DNA of 45,497 bases from positions 1 to 45,497 of the forward strand of contig ONJJ01000026.1 of assembly GCA_900318115.1 (NCBI GenBank), read 5' to 3'. This document shows positions 18,452-22,947 of the stretch, one piece after another. Each line of letters begins with the position of its first letter. The first letter of the stretch is position 1. The DNA is from an uncultured Prevotellaceae bacterium (lineage in GTDB: Bacteria > Bacteroidota > Bacteroidia > Bacteroidales > Bacteroidaceae). Both the position numbers and the translations under genes were made by a program. The notes beneath the pieces were generated by a model, which saw only the letters and a program-made list of their open reading frames with translations, was not told the DNA's origin and did not search any database.

Positions 18452-18663
18452 CGACGAAGACCCGAAGGGATTTTTTGTGGGCTGCGAAGAAACGATTGAG
18501 TACCGTTTCTGAAGCAGACCTCCCAGCGCTCTGAGAATGCAAGATAGGTTTATCCTTATCGATGCAGTCGAGGTTAAGCGCGAGAGTGAATGCAGGATTT
18601 TTACTGATTAACGGAAAATCCCATCGTACATCGTCAAATCGTAAACCGTCAAGTAAAACTGGA

Positions 18664-20562
18664 ATGACAATGGAGAAAGAACCACATCATGATATAAATA
18701 GCACCCTCCCTGCCGACGGTGACCCGGGCAGGCTCCGCCACCTCATCATCCTTGGCGACGGTATGGCCGACTGGCACGTGCCCGCTCTCGGAGGCAAGAC
18801 CCTCCTCCAGCACGCCTACACGCCCGCCATGGATTGGCTCGCGGCCCACGGTCGCTGCGGACTGCTGAAGACCGTCCCCGACGGCTTCCATCCCGGCAGC
18901 GAAGTCGCCAACAGCAGCATCCTCGGCTACGACCAGCACCTCGTTTACGAAGGCCGCGGACCCCTCGAGGCCGCTGCCATCGGTGTAGAACTCCAGCCCG
19001 ACGACCTCGCCCTGCGCTGCAACCTCGTCTGCATTGAAGGCGATATTCTGAAGAATCATTCCTGCGGCCGGCTCGAGACCGAAGAAGCCGCACCCCTCAT
19101 CGACTTCCTCAACGAACACCTCGCCTCCGACCCCAAGTACGGCGGCCGTGTCCGCTTCTACACCGGCGTCCAGTACCGCCATCTCCTCGTCATCCGCGGC
19201 GGCAACAAAAACCTCCTCTGCACCCCGCCCCACGACATCCCCCTCCAACCCTGGCGCGATAAACTCCCTGCCCCCGCTTCCTCCGCCTCCGCCTCTTCCC
19301 CCGCCTCTTCCCCCGCCGTCCCCTCTTCCCCCGCCGTCCCCTCTTCCCCCGCCATCCTCTCTTCCCCCGTTTCCTCCCCCTCCGCTTGTCGGTTGGGTGC
19401 CGCGCGTATTCGCGCGGACATCCTCTCCCCCGCCGCCACCGCCGCCCTCCTTTGCGACCTCATTCTTCGCTCCCAGGAACTTCTTCCGCAGCATTATATA
19501 AATAAGGAACGCGCGCGCGAAGGGCGCGACCAAGCCTCCAGCATCTGGCCCTGGGGCGGCGGATATCGTCCTCAGATGACGCCCCTCACCCAGCGTTTCC
19601 CCTCTATCCGCCGCGGTTCCGTCATCACCGCTGTCGACCTCATCCGTGGCATCGGTCACTACGCCGGCCTCCGCGTCATCCACGTCCCCGGTGCCACCGG
19701 CCTCTTCGACACCAACTTCGAAGGCAAGGCTCAGGCCGCCATCGACGCCCTCCTCGGCAACACCCTCGCCTCCCCCTCCCACGAGGCGCAGCAAGCCGCC
19801 GCCCCCGCTGCCCCCGCCGCTTGTCAGTTTGGTGCCTCGCATATTCGCGCGGACATCCCCTCCGCTGCCCCTTCTTCCTCCGATGGCAACGCCGCCTCCC
19901 CCTCTTCTCCTTGCCCCTCCGCAGGCGATGACTTCGTCTATCTTCACGTCGAGGCCAGCGACGAAGCCGGCCACGACGGTTCCGTGGCCCTCAAGCTCCA
20001 GACTATCGAAGACCTCGATCATCGCCTCCTCCAGCCCATCCTCCGCACCTTCTACGGAGTCACATTCCCCCCTGCCCCCTCTTCCCCCGCCTCTCCCTCT
20101 TCCCCTGCAGAATCCTCCTCCCCCTCTTCCCCTGCAGAATCCTCCTCCCCCTCTTCCCCCGCAGAATCCTCCTCCCCCTCTTCCCCCGCAGAATCCTCCT
20201 CCCCTGCAGAATCCTCCTCCCCCTCTTCCCCTGCCTCCCCCTCTTCCCCCGCCTCCCCTTCTTCCCCCGCAGAATCCTCCTCCCCCGCCGTTTTCCCCTC
20301 CTCTTCCCACAAGGCCTGCCGGTTGGGTGCCGCGCGTATTCGCGCGGACATCCCCCTCGCCATCGCCCTCCTTCCCGACCATCCCACTCCCTGCGAGCTT
20401 CGCACTCACACTGCCGACCCCGTCCCCTTCTGCATCTACTATCCCGGCATTGTCCCCGATTCCGTGCAGACCTTCGACGAGGACGCTGCCAAGTCCGGCT
20501 CCTACGGCTCCCTCCAGGGCGACGATTTCATCCGGGAGTTCATGAAAGCGTCAGGGAAATAA
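18664..20562 (+). CDS. apgM: ApgM-type phosphoglycerate mutase-like protein, probable homoserine kinase substitute, with three loop insertions
   Basis: 632 residues from the ATG at 18664 (another ATG lies at 18670), against roughly 400 for the family. Conserved blocks of the alkaline-phosphatase-superfamily fold are intact: HLIILGDGMADW near the N-terminus, DGFHPGSEVANSSILGYD, SIWPWGGG, GATGLFDTNFEGKA, HVEASDEAGHDG and LLPDHPTPCELRTHTADPVPF. No thrB is in the operon, and in Bacteroidetes this family between thrA and thrC is the predicted functional analogue of homoserine kinase; that role is inferred from context. The excess length lies in three Ser/Pro/Ala-rich insertions at about residues 203-257, 363-420 and 468-566, all between conserved blocks. 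Each carries one copy of the same 13-residue peptide (ACRLGAARIRADI or variant). The frame is kept throughout, so the enzyme may remain active. Confidence 0.85.
   Translation: MTMEKEPHHDINSTLPADGDPGRLRHLIILGDGMADWHVPALGGKTLLQHAYTPAMDWLAAHGRCGLLKTVPDGFHPGSEVANSSILGYDQHLVYEGRGPLEAAAIGVELQPDDLALRCNLVCIEGDILKNHSCGRLETEEAAPLIDFLNEHLASDPKYGGRVRFYTGVQYRHLLVIRGGNKNLLCTPPHDIPLQPWRDKLPAPASSASASSPASSPAVPSSPAVPSSPAILSSPVSSPSACRLGAARIRADILSPAATAALLCDLILRSQELLPQHYINKERAREGRDQASSIWPWGGGYRPQMTPLTQRFPSIRRGSVITAVDLIRGIGHYAGLRVIHVPGATGLFDTNFEGKAQAAIDALLGNTLASPSHEAQQAAAPAAPAACQFGASHIRADIPSAAPSSSDGNAASPSSPCPSAGDDFVYLHVEASDEAGHDGSVALKLQTIEDLDHRLLQPILRTFYGVTFPPAPSSPASPSSPAESSSPSSPAESSSPSSPAESSSPSSPAESSSPAESSSPSSPASPSSPASPSSPAESSSPAVFPSSSHKACRLGAARIRADIPLAIALLPDHPTPCELRTHTADPVPFCIYYPGIVPDSVQTFDEDAAKSGSYGSLQGDDFIREFMKASGK
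19384..19423 (+). repeat. 40-nt in-frame module, copy A (apgM)
   Basis: Encodes A-C-R-L-G-A-A-R-I-R-A-D-I at ApgM residues 241-253. The core ccgcgcg-tatt-cgcgcgg is a perfect 7-bp hairpin with a 4-nt loop. It matches copy C at 38 of 40 bases and copy B at 36 of 40. Confidence 0.85.
19774..19800 (+). repeat. 27-nt PSHE(V/A)QQAA module, copy 1 (apgM)
   Basis: Encodes PSHEAQQAA (ApgM residues 371-379) and differs by one base from the two copies in thrC (gcg instead of gtg). It lies 18 bp before copy B of the 40-nt module, so the two module types occur together here. Confidence 0.8.
19819..19858 (+). repeat. 40-nt in-frame module, copy B (apgM)
   Basis: Encodes A-C-Q-F-G-A-S-H-I-R-A-D-I at residues 386-398. 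Four substitutions from copy A, two of which break the hairpin arm, while the reading frame and the last 18 bases are unchanged. Confidence 0.8.
20072..20306 (+). repeat. CT-rich minisatellite (27-bp unit) in apgM
   Basis: Tandem and partly degenerate 27-bp units encode repeats of SPSSPAESS; about four well-conserved units (20103-20200) are followed by shorter SPA/SPAES variants. The coding strand is almost pure pyrimidine except for the gcagaa of each unit. The 9-codon unit means copy-number change by slippage or recombination would alter linker length but not frame. Confidence 0.85.
20314..20353 (+). repeat. 40-nt in-frame module, copy C (apgM)
   Basis: Encodes A-C-R-L-G-A-A-R-I-R-A-D-I at residues 551-563, directly before the conserved strand IALLPDHPTP. 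It is identical to copy A over the last 33 bases, including the hairpin core. The codons just before it read SSSHK, resembling the SHE start of the 27-nt module. Confidence 0.85.
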
Positions 20563-20602
20563 ATCGCAAATCGTGAATTTCATAAAAACTATATAATTCT
20601 CT

Positions 20603-22117
20603 ATGTCATTCTACTATAGCACCAACCACACCGCCTCCCGCGCCACCCTCCGCGACGCCGTCGTCCGCGGCCTTGCCGAGGACCGGGGCCTCTATATGCC
20701 CGAAGTCATCAAGCAGTTGCCCGCCACCTTCTGGCAGGAGATTGCCGACCTCACCTTCCAGGAAGTAGCCTGCCGCGTCGCCGACGCCTTCTTCGGCGAG
20801 GACGTCCCCGCCGAGGACCTGCGCCGCATCGTCTGCGACACCCTCTCTTTCGACACCCCCTTGGTCCATGTCGAGGACAATATCTACGCCCTTGAGCTCT
20901 TCCACGGGCCCACCCTAGCCTTCAAGGATGTCGGCGCCCGCTTCATGGCCCGCCTCCTGCAATACTTTATACGCCAGAACCCGACCACTTCCCCTGACGG
21001 CCAGCGGGGTGGAAGCCTCAACGTCCTCGTCGCCACCTCCGGTGACACCGGTTCCGCCGTCGCCAACGGCTTCCTCGGCGTCGATGGCATCCACGTCTAT
21101 GTCCTCTACCCCAAGGGAAAGGTCTCTCCCATCCAGGAGTGTCAGTTCACCACCCTCGGCCAGAACATCACCGCCCTCGAGGTCGATGGCGTCTTCGATG
21201 ACTGCCAGCGCCTGGTCAAGTCCGCCTTCATGGACGCCGACCTCAACGCCCACATGCGCCTCACCTCCGCCAACAGCATCAACGTCGCCCGCTTCCTCCC
21301 CCAGGCCTTCTATTACTTCTGGGCCTATGCTCAGATCCTGAAACTCAGCCACCCCGCCCCCTCCCACGAGGTGCAGCAAGCCGCCGTCCCCTCTTCCTCC
21401 TCCTCCTCCTCCTCCTCCGCCCCCTCCCACGAGGTGCAGCAAGCCGCCGCCCCCTCTTCCCCCTCCGCCGATCTCAAATTAGTCTTCTGCGTTCCCTCCG
21501 GCAACTTCGGCAACATCTGTTCCGCCCTCTTCGGCCACGTCATGGGCCTGCCCGTCCACCGCTTCATTGCCGCCAACAACGCCAATGACGTCTTCTACCA
21601 GTACCTCCAGACGGGCACCTACACCCCCCGTCCCTCCATTCAGACCATCGCCAACGCCATGGATGTCGGCGACCCCTCCAACTTCGCCCGCATCCTCGAC
21701 CTCTACAGCCGCCCAGATGTGCAATCCGTCCTGAAATCCCGCGACATCGCCCAGCCCCTTCCCTCCCTGGCAGACCAGATCGAGGCTGCCCCTTCTTCTC
21801 CCTTCCTCTCCGCCACCACCTACACCGACGCCCAGATCGCCGCCACCATGCGCGACTGCTACGCCCGCACCGGCTACGTCCTTGACCCCCACGGTGCCTG
21901 CGGCTATCGTGCCCTGAAGGAGCACCTCCTGCCCGATGAAATCGGCGTTTTTCTCGAGACGGCGCACCCCGCGAAGTTCAAGGACACCGTGGACACCATC
22001 CTCGGTATCGACCTCCCCGTGCCCGGGAAACTTCAAGCCTTCATGCGCGGCCGCAAGCAGAGCATACCTCTCTCCGCCGACTTCGCCGACTTCAAAGCCT
22101 TCCTCCTCGCGGAGTAA
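20603..22117 (+). CDS. thrC: Threonine synthase with a loop insertion
   Basis: 504 residues, against about 430 for typical Bacteroidetes ThrC. It is a PLP enzyme converting O-phosphohomoserine to threonine. The cofactor lysine lies in HGPTLAFKDVGARF; VATSGDTGSAVANGF and VPSGNFGNICSALFGH are conserved phosphate-binding motifs. Between FYYFWAYAQILKL and LVFCVPSGNFGN there is an insertion (about residues 248-291) made of two PSHEVQQAA modules around a run of nine serines, ending in Ser/Pro-rich sequence. The start is 40 bp after apgM, and an unknown lipoprotein gene follows after 20 bp. Confidence 0.94.
   Translation: MSFYYSTNHTASRATLRDAVVRGLAEDRGLYMPEVIKQLPATFWQEIADLTFQEVACRVADAFFGEDVPAEDLRRIVCDTLSFDTPLVHVEDNIYALELFHGPTLAFKDVGARFMARLLQYFIRQNPTTSPDGQRGGSLNVLVATSGDTGSAVANGFLGVDGIHVYVLYPKGKVSPIQECQFTTLGQNITALEVDGVFDDCQRLVKSAFMDADLNAHMRLTSANSINVARFLPQAFYYFWAYAQILKLSHPAPSHEVQQAAVPSSSSSSSSSAPSHEVQQAAAPSSPSADLKLVFCVPSGNFGNICSALFGHVMGLPVHRFIAANNANDVFYQYLQTGTYTPRPSIQTIANAMDVGDPSNFARILDLYSRPDVQSVLKSRDIAQPLPSLADQIEAAPSSPFLSATTYTDAQIAATMRDCYARTGYVLDPHGACGYRALKEHLLPDEIGVFLETAHPAKFKDTVDTILGIDLPVPGKLQAFMRGRKQSIPLSADFADFKAFLLAE
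21359..21448 (+). repeat. Two 27-nt PSHEVQQAA modules flanking a TCC microsatellite in thrC
   Basis: Copies at 21359-21385 and 21422-21448 are identical over 27 bases and spaced 63 bp apart. Between them eight perfect TCC units (21395-21418) encode part of a nine-serine run. All spacings are multiples of three, so the thrC frame is kept. Confidence 0.9.
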
Positions 22118-22137
22118 AACCATTACAGCCATTAACT

Positions 22138-22947
22138 ATGAAAAAAACTTATTCCATCCTCGGCGCCGCCCTCTTCGTCAGCGCCACCCTCATCCTCCTA
22201 GTCGCCTGCCGGCCTTCAGGCACCGATATCACCCCCGTCAGCGGCACGCTGGAGGCCCCCTTCCCTGTGGACTCCGCCCCCGCCGCCGTCCTCCAGGCCA
22301 TGCAGCGTGCCCAGCGCTTCCACACCTACGAGATCCTGAGCGACACCGCCCATGACATCAGCGTCGAGGCCATCGTCGAGGCCGACACCGCCTCCACCGG
22401 AGGCTATGGCCTCGTCATCGTGAAGGGTGCCACCTCCACCACCTTCCCCCACATCTTCCTCGCGCGCCAGCCCCAGGCCCGCTACTGCGCCCCGTCTGGC
22501 GACCTCTGGCTCAGCGCCAGCGCCACGGAAGGCACCGGCGTGTCCATCAAGCATCTCTGTCAGTTCCGCTTCCTCGAAGGCGACTCGGCCGTCATCGTCC
22601 GCACCGTGGATCCCTACGTCCTCCAGCAACAGCTGCTCACCCGCCTCGGCTATCACATCGACGGAGAGCAGATCACCCTCTACGATGACCGCCGACCCCT
22701 CGCCACCGCCACCAACACCATCACCGATATGGGAGGTTTCGACCCCGAACAACCCCTCTGGATTGGCGACCAGCTGCAGTACGACCTCAGCGGCGACGTA
22801 CCCCGTCTGCTCCTGACCCCCGGTGTCCGTTTCGCCGTGTGCCCCATCCTCTTCTACGATGACATGCCCACCCTCTCTGCCCCCCTCACCTTCTCCCCCG
22901 ACGGCACACCCGTCATCGGCGACCTCCAGCCCGATGCCCAGCCCTGA
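22138..22947 (+). CDS. Predicted lipoprotein of unknown function
   Basis: 269 residues. MKKTYSILGAALFVSATLIL is followed by a lipobox LLVAC with Cys at about residue 24, predicting a membrane-anchored lipoprotein. The rest appears beta-rich, with no domain I recognise and no repeats like those in the two genes upstream. It begins 20 bp after thrC and is likely read through from the threonine operon, though nothing ties it to threonine synthesis. What follows is a long non-coding stretch. Confidence 0.8.
   Translation: MKKTYSILGAALFVSATLILLVACRPSGTDITPVSGTLEAPFPVDSAPAAVLQAMQRAQRFHTYEILSDTAHDISVEAIVEADTASTGGYGLVIVKGATSTTFPHIFLARQPQARYCAPSGDLWLSASATEGTGVSIKHLCQFRFLEGDSAVIVRTVDPYVLQQQLLTRLGYHIDGEQITLYDDRRPLATATNTITDMGGFDPEQPLWIGDQLQYDLSGDVPRLLLTPGVRFAVCPILFYDDMPTLSAPLTFSPDGTPVIGDLQPDAQP

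Follow-up and report, generated by a model that had tools for sequence, protein, structure and literature searches.

Repetitive extragenic palindromic (REP) elements typically occur in high copy number, usually over 100, and mostly outside of genes (PMC2817692; PMC3733652). Among the REP-associated tyrosine transposases (RAYTs, also called TnpA_REP), the members of subclass 2.4 are common in Bacteroidetes and Cyanobacteria, and they have REPs located in frame inside the transposase gene itself, generally between the HUH and Tyr motifs (Quentin et al. 2018, PMC6006769). Di Nocera et al. (2013, PMC3733652) listed REPs inside many genes, and a 2021 study reported that cleavage occurs at CT or CA or, when the tetranucleotide is changed, at CC (PMC8266576). 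Here we describe a 40-nt module that is present three times in the phosphoglycerate mutase gene apgM of an uncultured Prevotellaceae bacterium. The gene is located on contig ONJJ01000026.1 of assembly GCA_900318115.1, and the whole contig stretch of 45,497 nt is referred to as the window. We consider it likely that the module is a copy of a REP-type element that belongs to a RAYT system and lives in pyrimidine-rich sequences encoding Ser/Pro linkers.

The system resembles subclass 2.4 in that it is abundant in Bacteroidetes, has a variable insertion domain between the HUH and Tyr motifs, has REPs in the transposase gene that keep the frame and has REPs near that gene (PMC6006769). However, its tag is GGTTGGGTG rather than GT[AG]G, a long conserved part follows the Tyr motif where subclass 2.4 is without a core extension, and, of the 28 located copies in the genome that are outside the RAYT locus, 17 lie in other genes. 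The intragenic GTAG and CGTC REPs are also palindromes in known protein genes, sometimes two per gene, and they are thought to be in linkers (PMC3733652). Unlike those REPs, which are mostly intergenic, 17 of the 31 copies read here are in Pfam-supported genes, three copies share one gene with expanded Ser/Pro tracts and the tag is different. Since two defining REP features are lacking (the GT[AG]G tag, and high copy number with extragenic placement) and the extension after the core departs from subclass 2.4, we liken the system to subclass 2.4 and do not file it there.

Rickettsia palindromic elements use several reading frames, and we know of no link between RPE-1 and a transposase; here, in contrast, a transposase subfamily carries the hairpin. 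An earlier note, made on the window from its letters alone, had compared the module with these Rickettsia elements. The likeness, drawn by description only, holds for in-frame palindromic inserts in loops of unrelated proteins (PMC3733652), but REP/RAYT systems are the closest known kind, given the hairpin inside the RAYT gene. The note also knew of no description in this setting. This is correct for the family and its host, because no publication on the element family in rumen Bacteroidaceae was found in the literature searched, a search with most subscription journals outside its scope. It is not correct for the principle, because in-frame REPs, including ones inside RAYT genes, are published (PMC6006769, PMC3733652). 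We regard the module as a real and well-supported REP-like family in a new host setting. What is new is the family, its mostly genic place here and the finding that one gene loop has different hairpins in different species.

The module and its hairpin

The three copies are all in one apgM frame with spacings of 435 and 495 bp, and their places (Table 1) and identities are those given in the earlier note. Relative to copy 1, copy 3 is identical at 38 and copy 2 at 36 of 40 positions, and copies 1, 2 and 3 encode the peptides ACRLGAARIRADI, ACQFGASHIRADI and ACRLGAARIRADI, respectively. A chance repeat is ruled out, as a 28-mer of the module has three matches in the window versus none in 100 dinucleotide shuffles. 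As single-stranded DNA, copies 1 and 3 form the perfect 7-bp hairpin that had been described for two copies, with -13.4 kcal/mol for either copy and z of -4.1 and -3.2, respectively. Copy 2 has lost it through substitutions (-3.6 kcal/mol, z 0.2).

The 40-nt unit is what the three apgM copies share, but only about 26 nt of it are conserved across 102 distinct copies. This core consists of the 9-nt 5' tag GGTTGGGTG and a hairpin (hairpin A) whose stem has up to 7 bp and whose loop is TATT, within the 20-40 nt of a REP unit with tag and hairpin. In collecting the 102 copies, the search specified nothing but the tag and the loop (T[TC]GGGTG, then any seven bases, then TA[TC]T). The conservation of these two parts is therefore imposed by the search pattern, while the stems were free. 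Conservation spans positions -2 to +23 relative to TTGGGTG and then falls. GTAG is present at the foot of the hairpin in 27 of the 102 copies and GTGG in one, and so the sequence GT[AG]G that defines REPs is absent from most of them.

Stem pairs 1 to 7 form in 100, 99, 101, 98, 101, 69 and 62 of the 102 copies, and when the 3' arms were re-dealt 1000 times the maxima for these pairs were 84, 100, 101, 98, 92, 59 and 64. Pairs 1, 5 and 6 are thus above every shuffle, which indicates that the stem covaries; pairs 2-4 are nearly invariant and little informative, and pair 7 does not exceed its maximum. The pair types are G-C/A-T in a ratio of 60:38 at the loop and G-C/C-G in a ratio of 92:8 at pair 5, and related copies among the 102 are non-independent in this count. 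The consensus has a stop codon only with TAG variants and only in one forward frame. Together, the covariation of the stem and the use of all three forward frames (see below) indicate that the DNA hairpin, and not the peptide, is the conserved unit.

Five tandem copies of hairpin A, spaced 41-43 nt apart and together covering all three reading phases, are present at positions 2600-2790 of locus L069 (RUG13587). Here and below, L-numbers are loci examined and G-numbers are genomes; G000 is the genome that holds the window. Judged by identical loci, G123, G127, G018, G393 and G093 probably correspond to RUG11694, RUG12444, RGIG3623, RUG13587 and RGIG8060, respectively.

Transposases that carry the hairpin

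Several element-bearing loci are RAYT genes. The NCBIfam family REP_Tyr_transpos (NF047646) is the best family for all four proteins tested, with E-values of 5.5e-9 to 6.5e-14 (1.1e-10 for the type that we call A), and the match is split because of an insert in the RAYT proteins. The motifs MPDHxH (HUH) and Y..DNPRR (Tyr region) are invariant in 18 aligned proteins. In a protein search, A-type RAYTs of at least 60% identity were found in seven of the 14 genomes with the element versus none of the 125 genomes without it (Fisher 2e-8); this is based on the best matches by E-value, among the matches listed, and the query includes element-coded residues. All seven of these RAYTs contain hairpin A, and one of the seven is represented by two retrieved loci, both with the hairpin. 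Among the 60 RAYT loci retrieved in total, with overlap between a few, hairpin A is also near two B-type genes and is absent from the other 50.

All 11 A-type open reading frames (ORFs), which were fetched on account of the element, have hairpin A between the HUH and Tyr motifs; nine have it as an inverted pair and five have a further copy within 400 nt upstream. Hairpin A is absent from all three D-type and all four B-type RAYT ORFs. The four B-type ORFs have a different hairpin (GCGGACNNACCGC, hairpin B), and two of the three D-type ORFs have a GTAG-tagged one. As in subclass 2.4, each type has its own hairpin in frame between HUH and Tyr (11/11 A-type, 4/4 B-type and 2/3 D-type), although hairpins B and D were chosen by viewing those loci and their counts are descriptive. 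These subfamily-specific hairpins provide the strongest argument for a putative cognate RAYT/element pair. Judged from sequence, the cognate protein is most likely an A-type RAYT, a predicted Y1/HUH enzyme encoded elsewhere in the genome. The candidate gene (G000:C42:68696-70054) has an inverted hairpin pair inside its reading frame and a third copy just upstream. A B-type RAYT was also considered, because the element is near B-type genes in G000 and G123, and was rejected because the B-type ORF holds the other hairpin.

Hairpin B is itself dispersed, at position 4062 of L176 and in 26 distinct contexts over the loci examined, many of them RAYT or element loci, so that the number describes these loci and not whole genomes; the scrambled control gave none. 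In the A-type alignment roughly 155-190 residues, partly conserved, follow the Tyr motif, which differs from subclass 2.4 and its lack of an extension. This C-terminal region has a very weak match to DprA (E=0.45), and it is possible that the RAYT is fused to a Rossmann-like domain at this end.

Distribution and genomic context

The module is dispersed in G000, in other genomes of the genus and in related metagenome-assembled genomes (MAGs). G000 (3.3 Mb) has 21 places by blastn and 32 by a pattern search with up to two mismatches, versus none with the reversed pattern. With the same pattern, 14 of 139 same-genus genomes, including G000, are carriers with 1 to 37 copies each, for example 37 in G018 and nine in G010, and two of them (G071 and G153) count as carriers by two-mismatch places only; the reversed pattern gave one match over all 139. 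A draw of 399 genomes from the family, with up to one mismatch, had four carriers, i.e., three of 34 from the same genus and one of 365 from other genera, and 24 genomes from other families of the order had no blastn match. An exact-pattern scan of 84,980 species returned 49 stretches, all of them titled as Bacteroidaceae, Prevotellaceae, Prevotella or Bacteroidales MAGs, and where a title gives a source, it is the rumen or the abomasum. No viral contig matches the exact pattern and the A-type RAYT of L060 is unmatched in plasmids or phages, and so a phage or plasmid origin was rejected.

We read 31 of the G000 copies in context, in stretches picked for holding copies and with gene support judged by Pfam. 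The 17 copies within supported genes are all in the sense orientation, with 14, two and one copies in the three frames. ApgM has three of these copies and a radical SAM/TRAM protein has two. Single copies are present in the genes for YidC, an S9 peptidase, a TonB-dependent receptor, an AMP-binding enzyme, IlvD, a GH97 enzyme (where a second sense frame is open too), a sulfatase, a methionine synthase activation domain, DUF6057, a GH2 enzyme, an alpha-2-macroglobulin and a peptidyl-arginine deiminase. In line with the reading in the earlier note, the module is a dispersed palindromic element in frame within loops. Of the remaining copies, two are in a RAYT, eight are without family support and four are directly upstream of reading frames, namely those of a RAYT, a major facilitator superfamily (MFS) transporter, an amino-acid kinase and one unscanned ORF.

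The flanks of the copies are rich in pyrimidines on the element strand. The 5' and 3' fractions are 0.75 and 0.75 in G000 (31 copies), 0.75 and 0.78 in G123 (19), 0.58 and 0.67 in G018 (26) and 0.71 and 0.60 in G393 (12), versus a background of 0.50. The enrichment thus extends to G018, where many copies are outside convincing ORFs (judged without Pfam). CC is present at a fixed place after the element in 13 of the 26 G018 copies (p=0.0007, taking C at 0.45). The first CC in G000 is most often located four bases beyond that place, as in 12 of 31 copies.

In three species (L246, L261 and L051), an orthologous secreted protein (AATYT.DNLPIPYLQDK) has what appears to be a signal peptide, and a copy of hairpin A makes up part of it. 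It is possible that this copy is a domesticated REP.

The apgM gene, its inserts and its relatives

The ORF that holds the three copies matches 2,3-bisphosphoglycerate-independent phosphoglycerate mutase, ApgM (PF10143, E=1.3e-51; PF01676), and its true start is probably downstream of the listed one. Four blocks of the protein can be aligned with the solved structure 2zkt, and the three inserts separate these blocks from one another. The dN/dS ratio (nonsynonymous to synonymous substitution rates) of the core, over 430 codons, is 0.12, 0.14 and 0.13 for G000 versus the sister species G123, G127 and G018, respectively. The blocks are therefore under purifying selection and apgM looks functional, in agreement with the earlier claim that the inserts lie between conserved blocks of the fold and that the catalytic core seems intact.

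Table 1. Coordinates of the copies, the inserts and related features in the window
Feature	Position	Strand	Remarks
apgM-like phosphoglycerate mutase ORF, host of the three copies	18562..20562	+	666 aa as listed; PF10143, PF01676
Insert 1	19261..19437	+	59 aa, Ser/Pro/Ala-rich, tandem 18-nt units; flanked by PLQPWRD and TAALLCDL
Copy 1 of the 40-nt module	19384..19423	+	Tag from 19391; stem 19400-19406/19411-19417; loop 19407-19410
Insert 2	19756..19926	+	57 aa; flanked by AIDALL and DDFVYLHV
Second in-frame module CCACGAGGCGCAGCAAGCCGCC in insert 2	19779..19800	+	Peptide HEAQQAA; shared with next gene
Copy 2 of the 40-nt module	19819..19858	+	Tag from 19826; hairpin region 19835-19852, broken by substitutions
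Insert 3	20050..20358	+	103 aa, 27- and 18-nt tandem units; flanked by QPILRT and AIALLPDH
Copy 3 of the 40-nt module	20314..20353	+	Tag from 20321; stem 20330-20336/20341-20347
Two further HEVQQAA module copies	21364-21385, 21427-21448 (21364..21448)	+	Insert of threonine synthase, ORF 20603-22117

The comparison of apgM covers the 30 best of 114 same-genus matches, two of which end before sites 2 and 3. The element is present at site 1 in three of 30 loci, at site 2 in one of 28 and at site 3 in two of 28, and so most relatives have no element at these sites. The place of insert 1 has 11-31 aa in 26 of the 29 other aligned relatives, and that of insert 2 has 2 or 10 aa in the 27 others that reach it. 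The sites are elsewhere short or filled by other inserts; for example, G123 site 3 holds another repeat-like insert (judged by eye). Site 1 has hairpin A in G000, G123 and G127 but hairpin B twice in G018, which has a B-type RAYT. The two hairpin-B copies of G018 (L132, positions 830 and 875 of the reverse complement) are in frame, with the peptide SVPGGSSARSS. In ilvD the element is present in one of 30 fetched loci, that of G000, and the ilvD gene of G123 has only a Ser/Pro tract.

G000 and G123 were compared in stretches picked for a G123 copy there, plus apgM and ilvD, a choice that favours shared places. Eight of the 12 comparable places are shared by position, i.e., those in the sulfatase, the arginine deiminase, the alpha-2-macroglobulin, one spacer, radical SAM copy 2, the RAYT-A loop, upstream of RAYT-B and apgM site 1. 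Of the other four, radical SAM copy 1 is decayed in G123, and the places in apgM 2, apgM 3 and ilvD are without the element there.

Several side observations concern apgM and its neighbour. The second module (peptide SHEVQQAA) is common to apgM insert 2 and the neighbouring threonine synthase gene thrC, which has it twice, and it is absent from the 60 other stretches checked (G000, G123, G127, G010 and G018). A CT-rich 17-mer of insert 3 was considered as a genome-wide module and rejected because it is private to apgM (four in G000, one in G127 and none in 137 other genomes); this is silent on CT-rich tracts in general. In L130, L136 and L140, all from other genomes, the apgM frame continues via repeat-like sequence into an extra C-terminal domain, an apparent fusion. 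We take this domain to be a DUF559-like endonuclease.

Possible mechanism and alternative explanations

If the module is a REP-type element, the RAYT would recognize the hairpin on single-stranded DNA, use the tag as a guide, cut at pyrimidine dinucleotides and paste copies into pyrimidine-rich single strands, with the elements mobilized in trans. Because pyrimidine-rich coding strands encode Ser/Pro/Ala linkers, copies would land in the sense orientation in tolerant, presumably disordered loops. Since a stop codon arises only as described above, insertions of multiples of three bases can survive. Local recombination between pyrimidine-rich tracts would expand the inserts and may copy the 40-nt cassette from site to site.

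A more specific idea, which we offer tentatively and consider rather unlikely, is that the non-canonical guide GGTTGGGTG selects pyrimidine dinucleotides and so steers REPs into pyrimidine-rich coding strands. Ser/Pro linkers of core enzymes would then be the habitat of the element, and several RAYT subfamilies would compete for the same loops, as at apgM site 1 with its hairpins A and B. If the published cleavage results (PMC8266576) are applied here, a tag with GGTG at its end might give a preference for CC or CA, which would link the element to pyrimidine-rich strands.

A number of observations weigh against the assignment to a RAYT system. Some concern the transposase. The NF047646 scores are 36-52 bits versus a curated cut-off of 80, Pfam has no match to the A-type RAYT, the Pfam Y1_Tnp match in the B-type RAYT is weak (21 bits versus a cut-off of 23), and a PF01797 search of G000 matched three other places and missed the A-type RAYT. 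The RAYT association is also partly circular, as the RAYT gene and the query both contain the element. Seven of the 14 carriers, including the incomplete assemblies G018 (80% complete) and G010 (88% complete), show no A-type RAYT of 60% identity. The RAYT present in G018 is of the B-type, with a different hairpin in its ORF. In G393, which is 99% complete and has 13 copies, all that there is of an A-type RAYT is a broken piece interrupted by one stop. Others concern the element. The tag is not GT[AG]G, and the copy number is low for REPs (32 in G000 and 37 in G018), with the copies of G000 mostly genic. The place of CC differs between G018 and G000, so no single cleavage site is fixed, and no fixed cleavage dinucleotide can be seen in every lineage.

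The remaining observations against it concern history. The eight shared places of 12 imply that the family is old and here mostly inherited, with some turnover, and that recent movement is rare. The difference at apgM site 2 is not a clean insertion, since the tract there is composite and exceeds those of G123 and G127 by 141 nt. The G000 ilvD copy differs from apgM copy 1 at one of 40 nt, which fits gene conversion as well as transposition. Mobility had been offered in the earlier note as an inference, and we leave it as one.

The alternative that survives best is that the cassette spreads with no transposase, from one pyrimidine-rich Ser/Pro tract to another, by template switching or gene conversion. 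The hairpin may stall forks and ride along, and the shared codon phase of the tracts would keep the frame. We judge this possible rather than probable as an explanation of the module; it is compatible with a REP/RAYT origin and, where spread within genes is concerned, has to be taken seriously either as a companion process or as a competitor. In addition to the near identity of the ilvD copy and apgM copy 1, and the G123 ilvD tract that has no element, GGACATCC is common to the three apgM copies and ilvD in G000, and GGAAATCC is common to sites 1 and 3 of G127. The second module shared by apgM and thrC, the tandem repeats that make up the tracts and the frame bias of 14/2/1 agree with it as well. 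However, recombination between tracts leaves unexplained the G018 copies outside Ser/Pro tracts, the copies in three frames and the hairpin within one RAYT subfamily in 11 MAGs.

Could the hairpin act as a regulatory RNA or a DNA uptake signal instead of a mobile repeat? Uptake sequences are short dispersed sense-strand repeats inside genes, similar to these copies, and four of the 31 copies are just upstream of reading frames, the one at the amino-acid kinase being common to G018. However, there are only 32 copies in 3.3 Mb, the element is absent from 125 of 139 same-genus genomes and it is tied to one RAYT subfamily, all of which makes this explanation improbable. A known structured RNA was rejected, as no Rfam family is over threshold in positions 18500-22200 of the window, where the one match, to sR14, is at chance level (E=0.14).

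We give still less credence to the possibility that the peptide (A)C(R)LGAARIRAD is a functional, duplicated motif under selection, despite the 14 of 17 genic copies in one frame and the copy in the apparent signal peptides of three species mentioned above. Copies are found in each of the three forward frames, one copy is antisense inside a RAYT, others are outside convincing ORFs, the stem covaries at the DNA level and most relatives have empty sites; on the frames, the covariation and the non-ORF copies, a conserved peptide was rejected as the main unit. Finally, the inserts are repetitive and the genomes are drafts, but an assembly artefact of CT-rich sequence is hardly credible and was rejected, because a copy is present at the same site of ApgM in the separate genomes G123 and G127, where the flanking repeats differ, and the reading frame is uninterrupted under purifying selection (dN/dS about 0.13).

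Concluding remarks

The element family provides a link between a candidate enzyme and the palindromes that lie in frame in core enzymes of bacteria. It also has a built-in control, in that RAYT subfamilies carry their own hairpins in frame and different hairpin families fill the same gene loop across species. The origin of low-complexity inserts in bacterial proteins thereby becomes testable, and the natural REP/RAYT pairs are available for work on specificity in Bacteroidota. If the guide does steer REPs into pyrimidine-rich coding strands, then low-complexity insertions in the proteins of bacteria would arise directly from the target choice of a transposase.

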